Source of the DNA: an uncultured Flavobacteriales bacterium
GTDB taxonomy: Bacteria > Bacteroidota > Bacteroidia > Flavobacteriales_D > Sanyastnellaceae
Direction: 5' to 3'
DNA: 64,000 nt
Assembly: GCA_937881575.1 (NCBI GenBank)
Contig: CALGEI010000199.1
Location: 1-64,000, forward strand
Below, one piece after another: positions 53,741 to 64,000 of the stretch. The notes beneath the pieces are model-generated. The model ran no database searches. It was not told the origin of the DNA and saw only the letters and a list, made by a program, of their open reading frames with translations. Numbering within the stretch: the stretch's first letter is position 1; each line of letters begins with the position of its first letter. The position numbers and the translations under genes were made by a program.

Positions 53741-54583
53741 TCAAAGAAGATTGAGTTGGTGTTTCAAGTAGGAGCTAAACAGCAGCGTCAATTTGCGATA
53801 ATTCGGAATGCGGATGCGCTCTTCCATGATGCGGTCACTGGGAAGCGAACGGATTTTTTGAAACAGACGGAGGTAGTAGATGTAGGCGACATGCACCCCT
53901 AAGCGACTCGAACGAGGCAACTGGATAATGCCGGCATGGGCTGCTTTGAAATCGTCTTGAATTTCGGCTTCGATGGTTTTCTTCGTAGCCTCATCGAATT
54001 GACTCATATCCAAACCCGGGAAATAAGTGCGGCCTTTTTCCTTGAAATCGTCATTCAAATCACGAAGGAAATTGATTTTTTGAAAGGCAGCCCCCAACCG
54101 GCGGGCACTCGGAAGCAAGGCGTTGTAGCGGTCATCGTTTCCTTCCACGAAGACACGCAGGCACATCAGTCCAACGACCTCCGCCGAACCCACCACGTAG
54201 TCTTCGAATCCCTTGCGATCATATTCATTGCGGTTTAAATCCCATTCCATACTTCTGAGAAACAAATCCACGTGTTCTCGGTCGATGGAGTAGCGATGGA
54301 ACACGCGTTGAAAGGCGTGCAGAATCGGGTTGAGGCTGATGCCCTCGTCGATGGCAGCATAGGTATCTGCTTTGAATCGTTCGAACAAGTGCTGTTTGTC
54401 ATGGTCGTGAAACGAATCCACAATTTCATCTGCAAACCGCACGAAGCCGTAGATCGCGTAGACCGGAAGCCTCAATGGTTTTCCGAGCGCTCGGATGCCC
54501 ATCGAGAAGGAAGTGCTGTATGCTTTGGTGGTCTGCACACTGCATTCGTTGCAAACTTGGTCATACAATGCGATAGGGTCCAT
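53741..54583 (-). CDS. crtB: Phytoene synthase
   Basis: Condenses two GGPP molecules to phytoene. It has 280 residues. The two magnesium-binding motifs are FADEIVDSFHDHD near the N-terminus and LRDLNDDFKEKGRTYFP in the middle. YAIYGFVRFADE is a family segment. It begins 31 bases after crtI. The geranylgeranyl diphosphate synthase (crtE) is not in the window. Confidence 0.95.
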   Translation of the reverse strand: MDPIALYDQVCNECSVQTTKAYSTSFSMGIRALGKPLRLPVYAIYGFVRFADEIVDSFHDHDKQHLFERFKADTYAAIDEGISLNPILHAFQRVFHRYSIDREHVDLFLRSMEWDLNRNEYDRKGFEDYVVGSAEVVGLMCLRVFVEGNDDRYNALLPSARRLGAAFQKINFLRDLNDDFKEKGRTYFPGLDMSQFDEATKKTIEAEIQDDFKAAHAGIIQLPRSSRLGVHVAYIYYLRLFQKIRSLPSDRIMEERIRIPNYRKLTLLFSSYLKHQLNLL

Positions 54584-54614
54584 AGCGTACTAACTTCTAT
54601 AATGGTCAATTGGT

Positions 54615-56114
54615 TCAATGCTGTTTTTCAAGCCAAGACTTGGCTTCTCTGCCCGCAACTTCTCCACTGATGAGGCTTGGGGGAACACCAGGTCCAGGCG
54701 TCGTCAGTTGGCCGGTGAAGAAGAGTCCCGGAAGCTTGCTTTTCATCTTGGGTTTCCAAAATGCGGTTTGCTTCAGGGTGTTTGCCAATCCGTATGCATT
54801 CCCTTTAAACGCGCGATAGTCCTCTTGGAACTCGGCATGCGCATAGCTCCGCTGGTAAACGATGTGCGGGCGAATGTCGACACCGATGTGGGTTTCAAGC
54901 CGATCGCATAAGTGATTGAAATAGGCTTCGCGTTGGCCTTTTTCCTCCGAAAGGCCCGGGGCCAAGGGAATCAAGAAAAATAAGTTCTCGTGTCCTTCTG
55001 GTGCAACTCCTGCATCCGTTTTTGACGGAGCACTGATGTAAAACAACGGGTCCTTTGGCCAGGAGGGCGTGTCATAAATGGTTTCCGCATGCGGTCCAAA
55101 GGGTGTGTCAAAAAACAAATTGTGATGCCGCAATTCGGGCACACGGATGTTGACGCCCACATAAAAGAGCAGCGAACTGGGCGACATGACTCTGCTCTCC
55201 CAATAAGCGGCATCATAACGCCGGTAATTCGCGGGCAACAACTGCTGCTCCACATGGTGATAATCAGCCGCTGCAATGATGCTTTCGGCCTTCCATTTCG
55301 TGCCATCGCGCAACGTGACACCAGCGACTTTGCCCTGGTCTGCATCAATGGAGACGACGTCTTGCTCATAATGAAATTGCACCCCGTGACTTTCGGCCAC
55401 TCGGACCAATGCCAGAACGATTTCATGCATGCCGCCCATCGGGTACCACGTCCCCAACATGGTGTCGGCGTAATTCATCAAGCTGTAAAGCGCAGGCGTT
55501 TTCTCGGGTTTTGCTCCCAAAAAAAGGACAGGGAACTCCATGATCTGCAAAAGCCTCGGATCCGTAAAATACCGTCGCGCGTGCTTGCTGAACGATGTGA
55601 ACAAGGACAAATGTGTCGACTGTTTAACGGTCTTCCAATCGGCAAATTCCAGCACATTGTGAGCGGGCTTCCAAACGAATTCACTCATGCCAATGTCGTA
55701 TTTGACTTGGGCCTCGGCCATGAAGTCTGCGAGTCGTTGACCAGCGCCTTCCTCCATGGATTCAAAGGCGGCTTGCATGGATTCAAAAGCGGCGGGGACA
55801 TCCAATGCTTCTCCTGTGAACCACACTTTGTAGGATGGATCGAGGCGAACGAGGTCAAGTTCTTGGTTCACATCGCTTCCAAATTTGGAGAAATACGCTT
55901 CAAACACATCCGGCATCCAATACCAGCTGGGCCCCATGTCAAACGTAAATCCGGCTTCTTGAAACACCCGGGCTCGTCCGCCGGGATGGTTATGCCGTTC
56001 TAAAACAACCACTTGGGTTCCTTTCGATGCCAATTCTGTGGCGGCCGCGATGCCTGAAAACCCTGCGCCGATGACGATGGCTTGTGTGGAATGATCGGAT
56101 GAAAGAGAGCTCAT
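54615..56114 (-). CDS. crtI: Phytoene desaturase
   Basis: FAD-dependent desaturase that turns phytoene into lycopene. It has 499 residues. The N-terminal VIGAGFSGIAAATELASKG binds FAD, FDMGPSWYWMPD is a CrtI segment, and the C-terminal FTGQLTTPGPGVPPSLISGE is the usual end signature. The start at MSSLSSDH is chosen because the longer frame enters the divergent promoter. It is the first gene of the eight-gene carotenoid operon. Confidence 0.94.
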   Translation of the reverse strand: MSSLSSDHSTQAIVIGAGFSGIAAATELASKGTQVVVLERHNHPGGRARVFQEAGFTFDMGPSWYWMPDVFEAYFSKFGSDVNQELDLVRLDPSYKVWFTGEALDVPAAFESMQAAFESMEEGAGQRLADFMAEAQVKYDIGMSEFVWKPAHNVLEFADWKTVKQSTHLSLFTSFSKHARRYFTDPRLLQIMEFPVLFLGAKPEKTPALYSLMNYADTMLGTWYPMGGMHEIVLALVRVAESHGVQFHYEQDVVSIDADQGKVAGVTLRDGTKWKAESIIAAADYHHVEQQLLPANYRRYDAAYWESRVMSPSSLLFYVGVNIRVPELRHHNLFFDTPFGPHAETIYDTPSWPKDPLFYISAPSKTDAGVAPEGHENLFFLIPLAPGLSEEKGQREAYFNHLCDRLETHIGVDIRPHIVYQRSYAHAEFQEDYRAFKGNAYGLANTLKQTAFWKPKMKSKLPGLFFTGQLTTPGPGVPPSLISGEVAGREAKSWLEKQH

Positions 56115-56121
56115 GTTGTGG

Positions 56122-56129
56122 CAACAATA
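56122..56129 (-). promoter_or_regulatory. Possible -7 box of the carotenoid operon
   Basis: On the minus strand TATTGTTG lies seven bases before the crtI ATG; a TTG about 22 bases upstream could be the -33 element. The match to TAnnTTTG is partial, so this is the weakest of the promoters listed. Confidence 0.4.
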
Positions 56130-56180
56130 TGGGCCTAAAAGTTGTTCACTGCAATGGCAATTGACATTTTCATGAATCCC

Positions 56181-56192
56181 TAACTTTACCTC
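56181..56192 (+). promoter_or_regulatory. -7 box of bshB1, leaderless layout
   Basis: TAACTTTA, then CCTC, then ATG. A TTG lies 17 bases before the box. Confidence 0.6.
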
Positions 56193-56936
56193 ATGAGCCA
56201 ATCTCGAACCGATGCAATGGATGTGTGTGCTTTTGGAGCCCACCCCGATGATGTGGAGTTGTCTGCAGGAGGGACTTTGGCATCGATGACAGCCATGGGC
56301 AAGCGCGTTGCGCTGGTTGATTTAACCCTCGGCGAGCTCGGTACCCGTGGCACATCTTCTACCCGAGCTGCAGAAGCTGAGGACGCGGCTGCAATTCTTA
56401 ATGTGGTCCATCGTGAGAACTTGGACTTAGGAGATGGGTTTTTTGAAGTAGACCGATTGTCTTTGGTCAAGGTGATCGAAGTGCTGAGACGACTCCGCCC
56501 CAGAGTAGTCTTCGCGAATGCGAAATCAGATCGACACCCAGACCATGGAAGAGGGAGTGCGTTGCTGGAACGGGCCTGTTTTCTCAGTGGATTGTCTAAA
56601 ATCGAAACAATGGACAAAGCGAGTGGTGAGCAGCAATTGCCCTGGCGTCCGCAGTCTCTGTACTTCTACATCCAAGATCGGTGGAGAACCCCGGATGTTC
56701 TTGTGGACATATCGGAATTTGAAGAAATCAAGTATGCGGCCATAGCGGCGTACAAAACACAATTTTATTCTGGACCTGATGACGACGCTCCGGTTACTCC
56801 AATTAGCTCTTTAGATTTTCTGGAGCACCTCAAAGGCCGAGATGCGGCAATGGGACGTGCTGGAGGGGTTCGCAAGGCCGAAGGTTTTGAAACTGCGCGG
56901 CCACCAGTGGTAAAGGACTTATTTGACCTTCTCTGA
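56193..56936 (+). CDS. bshB1: Bacillithiol biosynthesis deacetylase BshB1
   Basis: Zinc hydrolase of 247 residues that removes the acetyl group from GlcNAc-malate in bacillithiol synthesis. FGAHPDDVELSAGGTLA and RHPDHGRG carry the zinc ligands, and LGELGTRGTSSTRAAEAEDA is a strong BshB1 mark. It implies that the organism uses bacillithiol as its main low-molecular-weight thiol; bshA and bshC are not in the window. Its end overlaps the flippase gene by 18 bases in convergent orientation. Confidence 0.92.
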   Translation: MSQSRTDAMDVCAFGAHPDDVELSAGGTLASMTAMGKRVALVDLTLGELGTRGTSSTRAAEAEDAAAILNVVHRENLDLGDGFFEVDRLSLVKVIEVLRRLRPRVVFANAKSDRHPDHGRGSALLERACFLSGLSKIETMDKASGEQQLPWRPQSLYFYIQDRWRTPDVLVDISEFEEIKYAAIAAYKTQFYSGPDDDAPVTPISSLDFLEHLKGRDAAMGRAGGVRKAEGFETARPPVVKDLFDLL

Positions 56937-59462: not shown

Positions 59463-61052
59463 ATGAATTTTTTTCTCAAGCTTCTTGTTTTTGTAGGATG
59501 GTTGCTCATCTCAGCTTGTTCGACCTGGGCTCAGGGACCTACATTTCACGCGGATGTGGCCCCCATTATTTATCAGAATTGTACGGAATGTCACCGATCC
59601 GGAGAGATTGGTCCCATGCCATTTACGACATACAAAGAGGTGTCAAATTATGGTGCATTCATTACTCATGTGACCTCCACAGGCTACATGCCTCCGTGGA
59701 CACCGGACCCGGAGTACACATCATTTATAGGCGAACGCTTTTTGACACAAAGTCAAATTGATCTGTTGGCGACGTGGTATGAAGCGGGCATGCCGGAAGG
59801 AAATCCAAAGAAAAACCCAGGTGTACCCGAATTTCCAAAAGGAAGCCAAATAGGAGAGCCTGATTTGGTGATAAAGATGCCTGAACCTTACGCTCACGGG
59901 GGTGATATGACAGACCAGTATCAAGTATTTGTCCTGGAAACGGGTGTTACGGAGGAGAAATTTATTAAGGCGGTTGAAATACGGCCTGGAAATGCGGAAA
60001 TCGCGCATCACTGCATCCTTGCGTATACGGAAAAAGAATCTTCTATTATTGCTGCAGAAGCTCTTGATCGTGCAGATCCAGATGTCGGTTATGAAAGCTT
60101 CGGGGATCACGGAGTACCGGTGGATGATTTCAACTTTGGGGAGTGGAGCCCAGGGGCAACCACTAAACCTTACCCGCCTTTTATTGGTAAGAGAATATCT
60201 CCCGATGGGCGCTTTTTAATGCAGATGCATTATGGCCCTAATTCGATTGAACATGAGGATTTGACCAAAGTGAATCTTTTTTTCGCGGATAAGCCGGTTC
60301 AGCGCCGGGTGAAGTTATCCATGATGTTAACCGGGAGCTTGAGCGAGCCTTTTTTTATTCCTGCAAATCAAGTCAAAACATTTCATGGTAGAACCTCGTT
60401 CGCCAAGGATATAAGTGTGCTCGCGATAACGCCGCACTGCCACCTTTTGGGACAATCTTGGTTGTGTTATGCCGTTTCCGCGGACTTGAGTGATACGATT
60501 CCCTTGGTTTCAATTCCGGAATATGATTTTAATTGGCAAGGGCCTTACACATTCCAGAAGATGAAGCATATCCCCGCGGGCTATACCATTCATGCCATTT
60601 GCAAGTATGATAACACAAAAGACAATCCCCTGAATCCAAACGACCCACCGGAAATGATGACTTGGGGGGAGTTGCATAATGATGAAATGTTTCTATACTT
60701 CATGCAATACGTGGATTATCTGCCGGGGGATGAGAACTTAGATTCGAATGATTTGTCTCAAGATGAATATGTTGATTTTGACGAGGATTATTTATTTCCA
60801 GTTTGGCCTGATTCTGCAGCCTCCAATGAGAATGTTAAGATTGCTTTCTATCTGAACGAGCAAGCCCGTGTCTCATTTGAATTCATGAATGTTCGAGGTG
60901 ACGTATTGACTTCTCACAATCTCAAGAATGAACTTTCAGAGGGAATTCATTGGGATGATGTGGACTTGACCTGTCCCCAAGGCACCTACTTCTTGCGCAT
61001 GAAGACATCAACGGGGTCAGATGAGCGTATCCGTATTGAAGTGACGGATTGA
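59463..61052 (+). CDS. Heme c/type II copper monooxygenase, copy 1, type IX secreted
   Basis: A 529-residue exported protein. After the signal peptide comes a cytochrome c-like domain with Cys40, Cys43, His44 and Met76 (GYMPPW). Residues about 135-420 match peptidylglycine alpha-hydroxylating monooxygenase: His182 and His183, His256 (MQMHYG), His325 and His327 (TPHCHLLG), and Met409 (DEMFLYFMQY), where the animal enzyme has DEMCNLYIMYY. The last 80 residues are a type IX sorting domain. It should hydroxylate a substrate with copper, oxygen and electrons that reach it through the heme; the substrate is unknown. The sequence ISAC resembles a lipobox but is absent from copy 2. The first ATG after a GTG at 59457 is used. 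Confidence 0.85.
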   Translation: MNFFLKLLVFVGWLLISACSTWAQGPTFHADVAPIIYQNCTECHRSGEIGPMPFTTYKEVSNYGAFITHVTSTGYMPPWTPDPEYTSFIGERFLTQSQIDLLATWYEAGMPEGNPKKNPGVPEFPKGSQIGEPDLVIKMPEPYAHGGDMTDQYQVFVLETGVTEEKFIKAVEIRPGNAEIAHHCILAYTEKESSIIAAEALDRADPDVGYESFGDHGVPVDDFNFGEWSPGATTKPYPPFIGKRISPDGRFLMQMHYGPNSIEHEDLTKVNLFFADKPVQRRVKLSMMLTGSLSEPFFIPANQVKTFHGRTSFAKDISVLAITPHCHLLGQSWLCYAVSADLSDTIPLVSIPEYDFNWQGPYTFQKMKHIPAGYTIHAICKYDNTKDNPLNPNDPPEMMTWGELHNDEMFLYFMQYVDYLPGDENLDSNDLSQDEYVDFDEDYLFPVWPDSAASNENVKIAFYLNEQARVSFEFMNVRGDVLTSHNLKNELSEGIHWDDVDLTCPQGTYFLRMKTSTGSDERIRIEVTD

Positions 61053-61276
61053 CATATGCTATTTTCTGCCGCGAATTCACCTTCGGACTGATGCGTCGAT
61101 TCCTATTCAAAAGGCGTTTGAGATACAGATAGCGCGGTTTATGCATTAACTTTCATGAAAATCAAGCCTCTGCAAAGCGTCACGAGTCTTGCAGAGTTGA
61201 AAAATGAGTTCAATAAAGCGAACTAAAAATTCGAGGAGCTTAATTTATATTGGGTCCAGTCTGAAAAACCGAAAGC
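61053..61276. other. Spacer between the two copper monooxygenase genes
   Basis: About 224 bases. It holds a perfect eight-base inverted repeat (61168-61175 and 61189-61196) with a 13-base loop and no T-run, a 23-codon frame at 61155-61226, and a TATATTGG box before copy 2. I see no terminator of the usual kind. Confidence 0.4.
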
Positions 61277-62863
61277 ATGCAGCGATTTTTAATTTGTTTT
61301 TTTTGTGCGACTAGTTTGACTCTGTCAACGGCCCAAGGTCAAACACCAACATTTCACGCCGATATAGCCCCTATTGTGTATCAAAATTGCACCCAATGCC
61401 ACCGTGTTGGTGAGATTGGGCCGATGCCGTTCACGACCTATGAGGAAGTATCCGAGCATGGAGCCTTCATTTCTTATGTGACATCCATGGGCTATATGCC
61501 GCCTTGGACACCTGACCCTGAATTTGCGACGTTGCGAGGAGAGCGGTTTTTGACAGCGAGCCAAATTGAAGTGTTGTCCGATTGGTACGATGCGGGTATG
61601 CCAGAAGGGAATCCTGCGGACAATCCCGGATTGCCCGAATTCCCTGAAGGAAGTCAAATTGGAGAGCCGGACTTGGTGCTTGAAATGCCGGAGCCGTATG
61701 CACATGGAGGGGACATGCAAGAGCAATATCAAGTGTTTGTTTTGGAAACAGGCGTGACGGAAGAGACGGAAATTCGAGCTGTTGAAATCCGACCAGGAAA
61801 CGCTGCCATTGCGCACCACACGCTGATTGCGTACACGGAGAGCCCCACTTCAATTGCTGGAGCGGAAGCGCTGGATGCAGCGGACCCTGAACCGGGGTAT
61901 GAGAGCTTTGGTGATTATGGAGTTAACGTGGAGGACTTTCTTTTTGGGGGCTGGGTTCCCGGGTCTTCCCCCACAGAATTCCCTTCCACCATTGGAAAGA
62001 AAATTGGACCCGATGGCCGTCTGCTTTTACAAATGCATTATGGTCCATCAGCAGTCGATGAAACGGATTTGACGCATTTGAACCTGTTTTTTGCAGAAGA
62101 TCCGATCCAACGAGAGGTGGATTTATTGCTCATGACAGTCAATAGCTTGACGGAACCCTTTTTCATTCCGGCGAACGAAGTCCCAACGTTTCACGGAATT
62201 TTTGAAATTGAAGACGATATCAGCGTACTCTCGATTACACCACATTGTCACCTGTTGGGTCAAGCGTGGGAGGTGTTCGCCGTTTCTGCCAACGGAAACG
62301 ATACGATACCGATGATTTCGATCCCAGAATGGGACTTCAACTGGCAGGGTATTTTCAGTTATCCGGCGTTGAAGCACATCCCGGCGGGTTACAAAATCCA
62401 CGCGTTCTGTACGTATGACAATACCGCCAACAACCCGAACAACCCACATGATCCACCGGAGTGGATGTCGTGGGGAGATCTCACGGGTGATGAGATGTTT
62501 GTGGTGTTCTTTCAATTTGTGGATTACCTGCCCGGTGATGAGAACATTGTCATGTCTACTGCAGACGAAGACACCCGCATTGTGTATCAAACGGACAACT
62601 TGTTTCCGGCATGGCCCAACCCGAATCGATCCGGCCAGGAGGTGACCATTGGTTTTCATTTGAATGAAGGCGCAGATGTCACTTTGGACCTTTTGGATTT
62701 CCGCGGGCGCATGGTGGATACTTGGATGCCGGAGCAATCCTTTGCAGCAGGCCACCATCAGCGGACGTTCGTGCTGGGAGAATTGAATGCGGGAACGTAC
62801 TTCTACCGCATGACGACGTCTTTGGGTACGGTACGAAGTCACGTCATTCAAGTCATCGACTGA
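61277..62863 (+). CDS. Heme c/type II copper monooxygenase, copy 2, type IX secreted
   Basis: A 528-residue close paralogue of the gene before it, with every key residue kept: Cys38, Cys41, His42 and Met74 for heme; His180, His181 and His254 for the first copper; His323, His325 and Met407 for the second. Here the signal peptide (ending STAQGQ) has no lipobox. A type IX sorting domain (from PAWPNPNRSG) closes the protein. The tandem duplication is old enough for many silent and some amino acid changes. It shares one base with the redoxin gene (TGATG), which implies coupled translation. Confidence 0.87.
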   Translation: MQRFLICFFCATSLTLSTAQGQTPTFHADIAPIVYQNCTQCHRVGEIGPMPFTTYEEVSEHGAFISYVTSMGYMPPWTPDPEFATLRGERFLTASQIEVLSDWYDAGMPEGNPADNPGLPEFPEGSQIGEPDLVLEMPEPYAHGGDMQEQYQVFVLETGVTEETEIRAVEIRPGNAAIAHHTLIAYTESPTSIAGAEALDAADPEPGYESFGDYGVNVEDFLFGGWVPGSSPTEFPSTIGKKIGPDGRLLLQMHYGPSAVDETDLTHLNLFFAEDPIQREVDLLLMTVNSLTEPFFIPANEVPTFHGIFEIEDDISVLSITPHCHLLGQAWEVFAVSANGNDTIPMISIPEWDFNWQGIFSYPALKHIPAGYKIHAFCTYDNTANNPNNPHDPPEWMSWGDLTGDEMFVVFFQFVDYLPGDENIVMSTADEDTRIVYQTDNLFPAWPNPNRSGQEVTIGFHLNEGADVTLDLLDFRGRMVDTWMPEQSFAAGHHQRTFVLGELNAGTYFYRMTTSLGTVRSHVIQVID

Positions 62864-63363
62864 TGTGGAAAGTATGGGTGTTTCTAGCGCCATTGTGCCC
62901 CATTTGCCAGGACTACACGTTTTATCTCAATGCCATGCATGCGCAATGGGAACAGGAATATCCGGGACAAATTGAGTTCGTGGGATGGTTTCCGAACCCC
63001 ACGGTGTCTGCTGATCAAATCGACGTGTTTGAAGACCGGTATGCTGTAGAATGGGAATTGGCGCGCGACACGGTGGGGTGGTCAGACCGGCTCAACGCCA
63101 ACTGGACGCCCGAAGTTTTTGTGCTGGATTCACTGGGTGAAGTGCGGTATCGTGGCCGAATCAATGATTTCTATTTTGCGTTGGGAAAGCACCGGAATAG
63201 TCCCCGCAATCAGGATTTGCAGGATGCTGTGGAGGCCTTGTTGACGGGGGGAAACCCTGTGAATGCCTACACGGATGTGATTGGATGTCCCATCGAAAAG
63301 AGGATCCCTTTCAATGAATTGTATGGTCATGCAATATTCCCTGCACTGAAAAGTGCGAATTAA
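62863..63363 (+). CDS. Redoxin (thioredoxin-fold protein)
   Basis: A 166-residue thioredoxin-fold protein. The CxxC (CPIC, Cys12 and Cys15) lies in LAPLCPICQDY after the first strand; NWTPEVFVLDSLGEVRYRGRI has the cis-proline strand and the family's YRGRI segment; a third cysteine is in GCPIEKR near the end. In acidobacteria and planctomycetes I recall proteins in which such a redoxin is fused to the cytochrome c-copper monooxygenase module; here it is a separate gene. It has no signal peptide, so it appears cytoplasmic, whereas its neighbours are secreted. Its start is set by the TGATG overlap. Confidence 0.78.
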   Translation: MWKVWVFLAPLCPICQDYTFYLNAMHAQWEQEYPGQIEFVGWFPNPTVSADQIDVFEDRYAVEWELARDTVGWSDRLNANWTPEVFVLDSLGEVRYRGRINDFYFALGKHRNSPRNQDLQDAVEALLTGGNPVNAYTDVIGCPIEKRIPFNELYGHAIFPALKSAN

Positions 63364-63402: not shown

Positions 63403-63477
63403 GGTGGCTATAGCTCAGCTGGTTAGAGCATCGGTTTGTGGTACCGAGGGTCGTGGGTTCGAGCCCCATTAGCCACC
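63403..63477 (+). tRNA. tRNA-His (GUG)
   Basis: Complete cloverleaf. The acceptor stem is GTGGCTA with TAGCCAC; an extra G at 63403 pairs with the discriminator C at 63477, the identity mark of tRNA-His. The anticodon loop TTGTGGT carries GTG, and the T arm has GTGGG, TTCGAGC and CCCAT. CCA is not fully encoded. Confidence 0.97.
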
Positions 63478-63487
63478 CAACTTCAAA

Positions 63488-63694: not shown

Positions 63695-64000
63695 ATGTTT
63701 GTCCAGCGCCTAAATAGCATTTTGCTGCCTTTGTTGTTTGTCCTGTCCTCCGGAATTGCATCTGCTCAGATGACAGGTCTCTGGGTTGAAACGGTCGTTC
63801 AGCATGACGGAATCATTGGAAATACAGATTTCTCTGGATTGACGACTTACCGCTTGCATGCTGTGATGACGTCTGAATCGGATTTCTTAGGGGCGTCTTT
63901 CGGGAATGCCGCAACTCCTTGCTCCATCTCCACATCGACAAGTTTTTATCAGCACCCAGCGGGGGGGTCGTTTGGAACCGATATCAGTGACTTCTTCACC
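63695..64000 (+). CDS. Exported protein, 3' end missing
   Basis: The first 102 codons of a gene that runs off the window. The product begins with a signal peptide (MFVQRLNSILLPLLFVLSSG with a cut after ASAQ) and continues with short strand-rich sequence, LWVETVVQHDGIIG and TTYRLHAVMTSESDF, as in Bacteroidota adhesin-like or type IX secreted proteins. I cannot name it. The roughly 180 bases between the tRNA terminator and this start hold no gene I can support. Confidence 0.7.
   Translation, partial: MFVQRLNSILLPLLFVLSSGIASAQMTGLWVETVVQHDGIIGNTDFSGLTTYRLHAVMTSESDFLGASFGNAATPCSISTSTSFYQHPAGGSFGTDISDFFT

Follow-up and report, generated by a model that had tools for sequence, protein, structure and literature searches.

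Three consecutive genes near the end of a 64,000-nucleotide stretch of an uncultured Flavobacteriales bacterium (GenBank assembly GCA_937881575.1, contig CALGEI010000199.1; the whole stretch is referred to below as the window) probably encode an exported copper monooxygenase system. Its large proteins would have the fold of peptidylglycine hydroxylase (PHM) and dopamine beta-hydroxylase (DBH), with a mono-heme c module in the same chain as the point of electron entry and a small redoxin as an accessory. The two large proteins, copies 1 and 2, are paralogues (60% identical), and the stop codon of copy 2 (TGA, 62861-62863) shares one base with the ATG of the redoxin gene (TGATG at 62861-62865), as had been read from the letters alone in the original prediction. 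The genes are:

59463..61052, + strand: copy 1, 529 amino acids; signal peptide, heme c module, PHM-like two-copper core, weak type IX tail.
61277..62863, + strand: copy 2, 528 amino acids; the architecture of copy 1, with a type IX sorting domain above the NCBIfam cut-off.
62863..63363, + strand: redoxin, 166 amino acids; CPIC (C12, C15), TPE at 82-84, GC at 141-142.

Two alignments were used to assess the presumed heme and copper ligands, one of 32 Flavobacteriales sequences with identities down to 31%, the other of 56 rows, mostly fused homologues from other phyla. In the numbering of copy 2, which is used for all heme and copper ligands, the relevant positions are:

61388..61402, + strand: heme c motif CTQCH (C38, C41, H42), invariant in both alignments.
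61496..61507, + strand: MPPW with the presumed distal heme ligand M74, invariant in both alignments.
61814..61819, + strand: H180-H181, matching PHM CuH ligands H107/H108.
62036..62038, + strand: H254 (MHYG), matching PHM CuH ligand H172.
62243..62251, + strand: H323-C-H325, matching PHM CuM ligands H242/H244.
62495..62497, + strand: M407 (DEM), matching PHM CuM ligand M314, with a structural-alignment offset of 421 to 328 in 3mlj.

The motifs named in the original prediction are present in both open reading frames. The copper positions H180, H181, H254, H323, H325 and M407, like the heme positions C38, C41, H42 and M74, are invariant in 32/32 and 56/56 rows; since six copper and four heme positions are invariant in both alignments, the pattern is not due to chance. 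The Pfam model Cu2_monoox_C (cut-off 23 bits) matches copy 1 with 30.8 bits (E 2.3e-7) and copy 2 with 15.7 bits (E 0.011). As a single-sequence query against the PDB, copy 2 gave no match, and PHM and DBH were reached by profiles only: the 32-row profile matched DBH (E 1.6e-5) and PHM (E 4e-5) in the PDB, and the 56-row profile matched PHM/DBH sequences with E values down to 3.4e-8, with HH, HYG and HxH in register in both cases. The PHM-like core that had been predicted was borne out by an AlphaFold2 model of copy 2 (mean confidence score, pLDDT, 78.7; the core mostly near or above 90 and the tail poor). Residues 129-460 of this model superpose on residues 55-348 of rat PHM over 261 residues (VIA Z 20.8, root-mean-square deviation 3.4 A) and the model matches DBH with Z 20.2. 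Its Foldseek E value is 3.7e-12, and the first unrelated fold to match it is PNGase F-like (Z 8.5). Two structural alignments end at PHM residue 328 (with model residue 421 in the 3mlj row, and with residue 591 of a modelled fused homologue), and counting back from there, M407 and the fused M577 fall on PHM M314. Thus, as judged from aligned sequences and predicted models, the large proteins have a PHM/DBH-type two-domain fold with putative CuH His3 and CuM His2Met ligand sets.

The N-terminal heme c module is below the cut-off of the Pfam model Cytochrome_CBB3 in both copies. Genes for two cytochrome c assembly proteins and for the type IX secretion protein SprA are present in the window genome, which could therefore both attach heme and secrete proteins by the type IX route. 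Both copies had been proposed to end in a type IX sorting domain; this held for copy 2, which has a domain above the NCBIfam TIGR04183 cut-off (24.5 versus 23 bits; Pfam 26.6 versus 27, just under) and, with SprA in the genome, qualifies as type IX cargo, but not for copy 1, whose tail is sub-threshold in NCBIfam and Pfam (15.4 and 13.7 bits). In related genera, a second paralogue has a dockerin-like repeat in place of the type IX tail (L049:5554-7002, L044:15848-17317, L047:6859-8358); the L049 repeat matches the NCBIfam 'GC-type dockerin' at 1.8e-5, just under cut-off, and the L044 and L047 repeats were judged by eye. The whole heme-copper architecture is covered by no Pfam or NCBIfam model, and the open-access papers searched yielded neither a description of such proteins nor a bacterial member that has been characterised, although closed literature could still hold a description.

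The unfused redoxin and monooxygenase pair is a conserved operon in Bacteroidota. In 34 of 80 Bacteroidota loci, redoxin and monooxygenase genes are immediate neighbours with the same orientation (one of the 80, L123, is a fusion), and the redoxin is the sole broadly recurrent neighbour of the enzyme in these loci. The position of the redoxin gene varies, being downstream of the enzyme gene in the window genus and elsewhere upstream or between two enzyme copies (L049-L051), and in L103 the pair is divergent. Within the window genus, the junction is a start-stop overlap in 7/10 loci and a gap of one nucleotide in 3/10. In phylum samples, strong redoxin matches (at least 131 bits) were found in 12/23 enzyme-bearing genomes versus 0/322 others (Fisher 3e-16, a value without correction for kinship that combines two overlapping draws).

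Of the three genes, whose joint occurrence the original prediction had proposed to check, the redoxin and the monooxygenase travel together, but the tandem is not conserved. When 21 other genomes of the genus were searched with copy 1, 17 gave one match (the copy-2 orthologue, whole or in part) and three gave none; genome G166 gave a match of this kind and also a fragment at a contig end that is 68% like copy 1. Copy 1 lies on a long branch inside the genus clade of the copper-core tree, and the duplicates of L049-L051 lie in another clade. The tandem is a local feature of the window genome, and the conserved unit of the genus is copy 2 plus redoxin.

A profile of 20 neighbouring redoxins matched three solved structures, 2cvb (Thermus), 2ywi (Geobacillus) and 3u5r (Sinorhizobium), with E values from 8e-22 to 9e-16 (8.2e-22 for 2cvb), and the matches extend through the C-terminal GCxI motif. 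By profile, the thioredoxin-like features of the 2cvb group (fold, CPxx, TPE, GCxI) are present in the redoxin; C12, TPE and GC are invariant in the redoxin alignment, and the second Cys of CPIC is conserved in about 90%. As a single query, the window redoxin matches no Pfam family. It has no signal peptide, as had been noted at the outset alongside the secretion of the enzyme. This mismatch stands for the window genus (10/10 loci) and the nearest genera, where the redoxin starts 11 to 19 residues before its first Cys with no signal (the start in L051 is uncertain), but not for other relatives, whose redoxin carries either a hydrophobic signal for export (L048, L052-L058) or, as judged by eye, a lipobox-like signal (L068, L074, L088, L089) next to a monooxygenase that is also lipoprotein-like. 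The usual place of the redoxin family is predicted to be outside the cytoplasm, and the window lineage is without an export signal. Because related redoxins carry a signal peptide or lipobox, the compartment puzzle is removed for the family at large and stays for the window genus and its closest genera.

Three other explanations of the redoxin gene were rejected. A Sco-type copper chaperone does not fit because the redoxin has CxxC, not CxxxC, and no invariant His; a lipoprotein signal in the short N-terminus does not fit because there is no lipobox and cleavage would destroy the first strand; and a fusion of enzyme and redoxin broken by a frameshift does not fit because the type IX tail would come to lie inside the chain and because the redoxin frame in L039 and L041 opens only one codon before the ATG. 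In one genus member (L040:3676-4635) the redoxin frame extends to 320 amino acids and may be fused to the following gene or joined to it by a frameshift. A related redoxin type (CPVSN) occurs in other Bacteroidota (L105-L121), followed in most loci by a TlpA-like gene, and constitutes a separate pair.

The fusions of redoxin, heme and copper modules in other phyla to which the original prediction pointed were found by search. A genome scan with a query alignment headed by the fused Bacteroidota lipoprotein of L123 (599 amino acids) gave at least 589 relatives, the best 80 of which are all single chains in the order redoxin, heme motif, copper core. The hosts of fused chains are Planctomycetota, Verrucomicrobiota, Gammaproteobacteria (Steroidobacter group), Hydrogenedentota, Omnitrophota and Saprospiraceae. 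In the predicted structure of a fused homologue (pLDDT 91.1), the copper half matches PHM with Z 21.6, and the redoxin half matches 3u5r/2cvb with Z 23.5 and ResA with Z 17.9. The first Cys is kept in 51/52 and the GC Cys in 50/52 aligned fused redoxins, and the module junction follows directly after the redoxin GC motif. No single chain with all three modules is present at the window locus, where the modules are the same but the genes separate. In the copper-core tree, fused proteins lie on one side of a branch and all unfused Bacteroidota proteins on the other; in the redoxin tree, rooted on solved stand-alone proteins, the unfused clade (100/99) and the fused clade (99/96) join at 93/95, and alternative topologies are not rejected; either fusion or fission may have come first.

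From this architecture we infer that the sites are loaded with heme and copper, and that heme c most likely hands electrons singly to CuH, in place of the ascorbate of animal PHM and DBH; CuM would activate O2, and a C-H bond of an external substrate would be hydroxylated. The redoxin would be an accessory thiol protein, probably for maturation or protection. Its simplest chemistry would be to reduce the apo-cytochrome as ResA does; no other thiol target is as economical, because the heme pair, C38 and C41, are the only invariant cysteines of the enzyme in the alignments. Several observations weigh against such a system: in the enzyme tree, a clade of 28 enzymes is without an adjacent redoxin; four genomes of this clade show no redoxin at E 1e-6; the redoxin start in the window genus, 11 residues ahead of the first Cys, leaves too short a segment for a signal peptide; and the second Cys of CxxC, which a ResA-type reductant normally has, is missing in 52/52 aligned fused redoxins. 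Because so large an enzyme clade lacks an adjacent redoxin, the redoxin is dispensable. The observation made in the original prediction is confirmed overall, and its interpretation is partly supported.

The redoxin-less clade and genomes, together with an exported enzyme whose window redoxin has no signal peptide, also make it unlikely that electrons pass from redoxin thiols to heme c to copper in a three-step redox chain, with the operon working as a divided form of the fused enzyme and the redoxin taking part in each turnover. The single module order of the fused homologues, with its junction right behind the redoxin GC motif, the co-occurrence of redoxin and enzyme, and the near-invariance of the first Cys and the GC Cys in fused redoxins would all suit such a chain. 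It is possible, and somewhat easier to credit, that the redoxin of the window genus is cytoplasmic, kept for another task and merely translationally coupled to the enzyme gene, as the missing signal peptides and the tight gene junctions in the genus would suggest; yet across Bacteroidota the redoxin clade accompanies the enzyme and no other partner, and the two genes remain neighbours even where the gene order has changed. Some copper oxygenases can use H2O2, and the Redoxin/AhpC-TSA fold of the partner and the one peroxidatic-like Cys of the fused forms are consistent with a peroxygenase: CuM would react with H2O2, and heme and redoxin would deal with peroxide instead of supplying electrons. 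This appears improbable, as CxxCH with a conserved Met marks the heme as six-coordinate His/Met, the type found in electron-transfer cytochromes, and there would be no obvious reason for both copper sites to be invariant if H2O2 were used. A protein of PHM fold that stores or senses copper and has no catalytic role would agree with the failure to find a characterised bacterial member in the papers searched, but is very hard to reconcile with full CuH and CuM ligand sets, CuM Met included, in every aligned sequence, or with the nutrient-related gene context of relatives, which suggests an enzyme of nutrient use.

That context consists of seven loci in other orders of the class (L126-L132), where the enzyme and redoxin genes lie beside SusD and SusC/RagA genes (two SusD matches tested, E 4e-60 and 3e-107; three SusC/RagA matches tested, E 1e-197, 4e-138 and 3e-83; the rest by eye). 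Because the gene lies in SusC/SusD loci of relatives, this suggests nutrient use at the cell surface. Several of these loci also hold an ASPIC/UnbV FG-GAP protein and a PAP2-type protein. In PHM, R240, N316 and Y318 form the clamp for the substrate carboxylate; in the window family, the residues counted in column 240 include neither Arg nor Lys, 316 is mostly hydrophobic and 318 mostly F/Y. Because the clamp is missing, peptidyl-glycine appears an unlikely substrate, and the enzyme is probably not a peptide amidase.

By what route electrons arrive at the copper pair of PHM and DBH has been a question for many years, addressed mostly in the animal enzymes with ascorbate; given a natural in-chain heme, spectroscopy could follow the entry of electrons directly. 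Members of the family are common across bacterial genomes, none of the libraries searched has a model dedicated to it, and the SusC/SusD loci of Cytophaga-type relatives point to use of an environmental substrate. Tentatively, these proteins may represent a large undescribed class of ascorbate-independent bacterial enzymes, in which thiol, heme c and PHM-core modules form a built-in electron line, fused in several phyla and, in Bacteroidota, encoded by an operon whose enzyme is secreted to the surface; the substrate would be a nutrient from the environment.

Upstream of the three genes, window positions 53741-56936 hold a squalene/phytoene synthase, a CrtI-type desaturase (NF058655, above cut-off) and the bacillithiol deacetylase BshB1 (above cut-off). 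A tRNA-His (GTG) lies at 63404-63478, shortly 3' of the redoxin gene, followed by a secreted-looking protein (from window position 63695; L032:7696-9252) that is present in 6/10 genus loci and has no family above cut-off, its match to a Pfam calcium-binding domain being sub-threshold. In a plasmid collection, the search returned only a 24% Nonomuraea match and a sorting-tail match, and among viral contigs the enzyme had a single partial relative at a contig end and the redoxin none.

Among known systems, rat PHM (1phm/1sdw) shares with the window proteins the two-domain beta fold and the CuH (HH and H) and CuM (HxH and M) ligands, at about 17% identity. The window proteins differ in their added N-terminal heme c module, in lacking the clamp residues R240/N316/Y318 and the PHM disulfides (the core of the family being without conserved cysteines), and in being prokaryotic and exported, in part by predicted type IX secretion. 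DBH (4zel) has the same core (Z 20.2; profile E 1.6e-5) and also an extra N-terminal module, which is a DOMON domain rather than heme c. The fused redoxin-heme c-copper proteins, for which no family name was found, have the three modules and the same ligands as the window locus, but in one chain, with a redoxin lacking the second Cys of CxxC, and on a separate branch in both trees. The solved proteins 2cvb, 3u5r and 2ywi resemble the redoxin in fold, CPxx, cis-Pro motif and C-terminal GCxI, but stand alone and have no assigned role. ResA and CcmG share the thioredoxin fold (ResA, Z 17.9 to the fused redoxin), but the match ends before the C-terminal GC motif, and the fused redoxins lack their CxxC.

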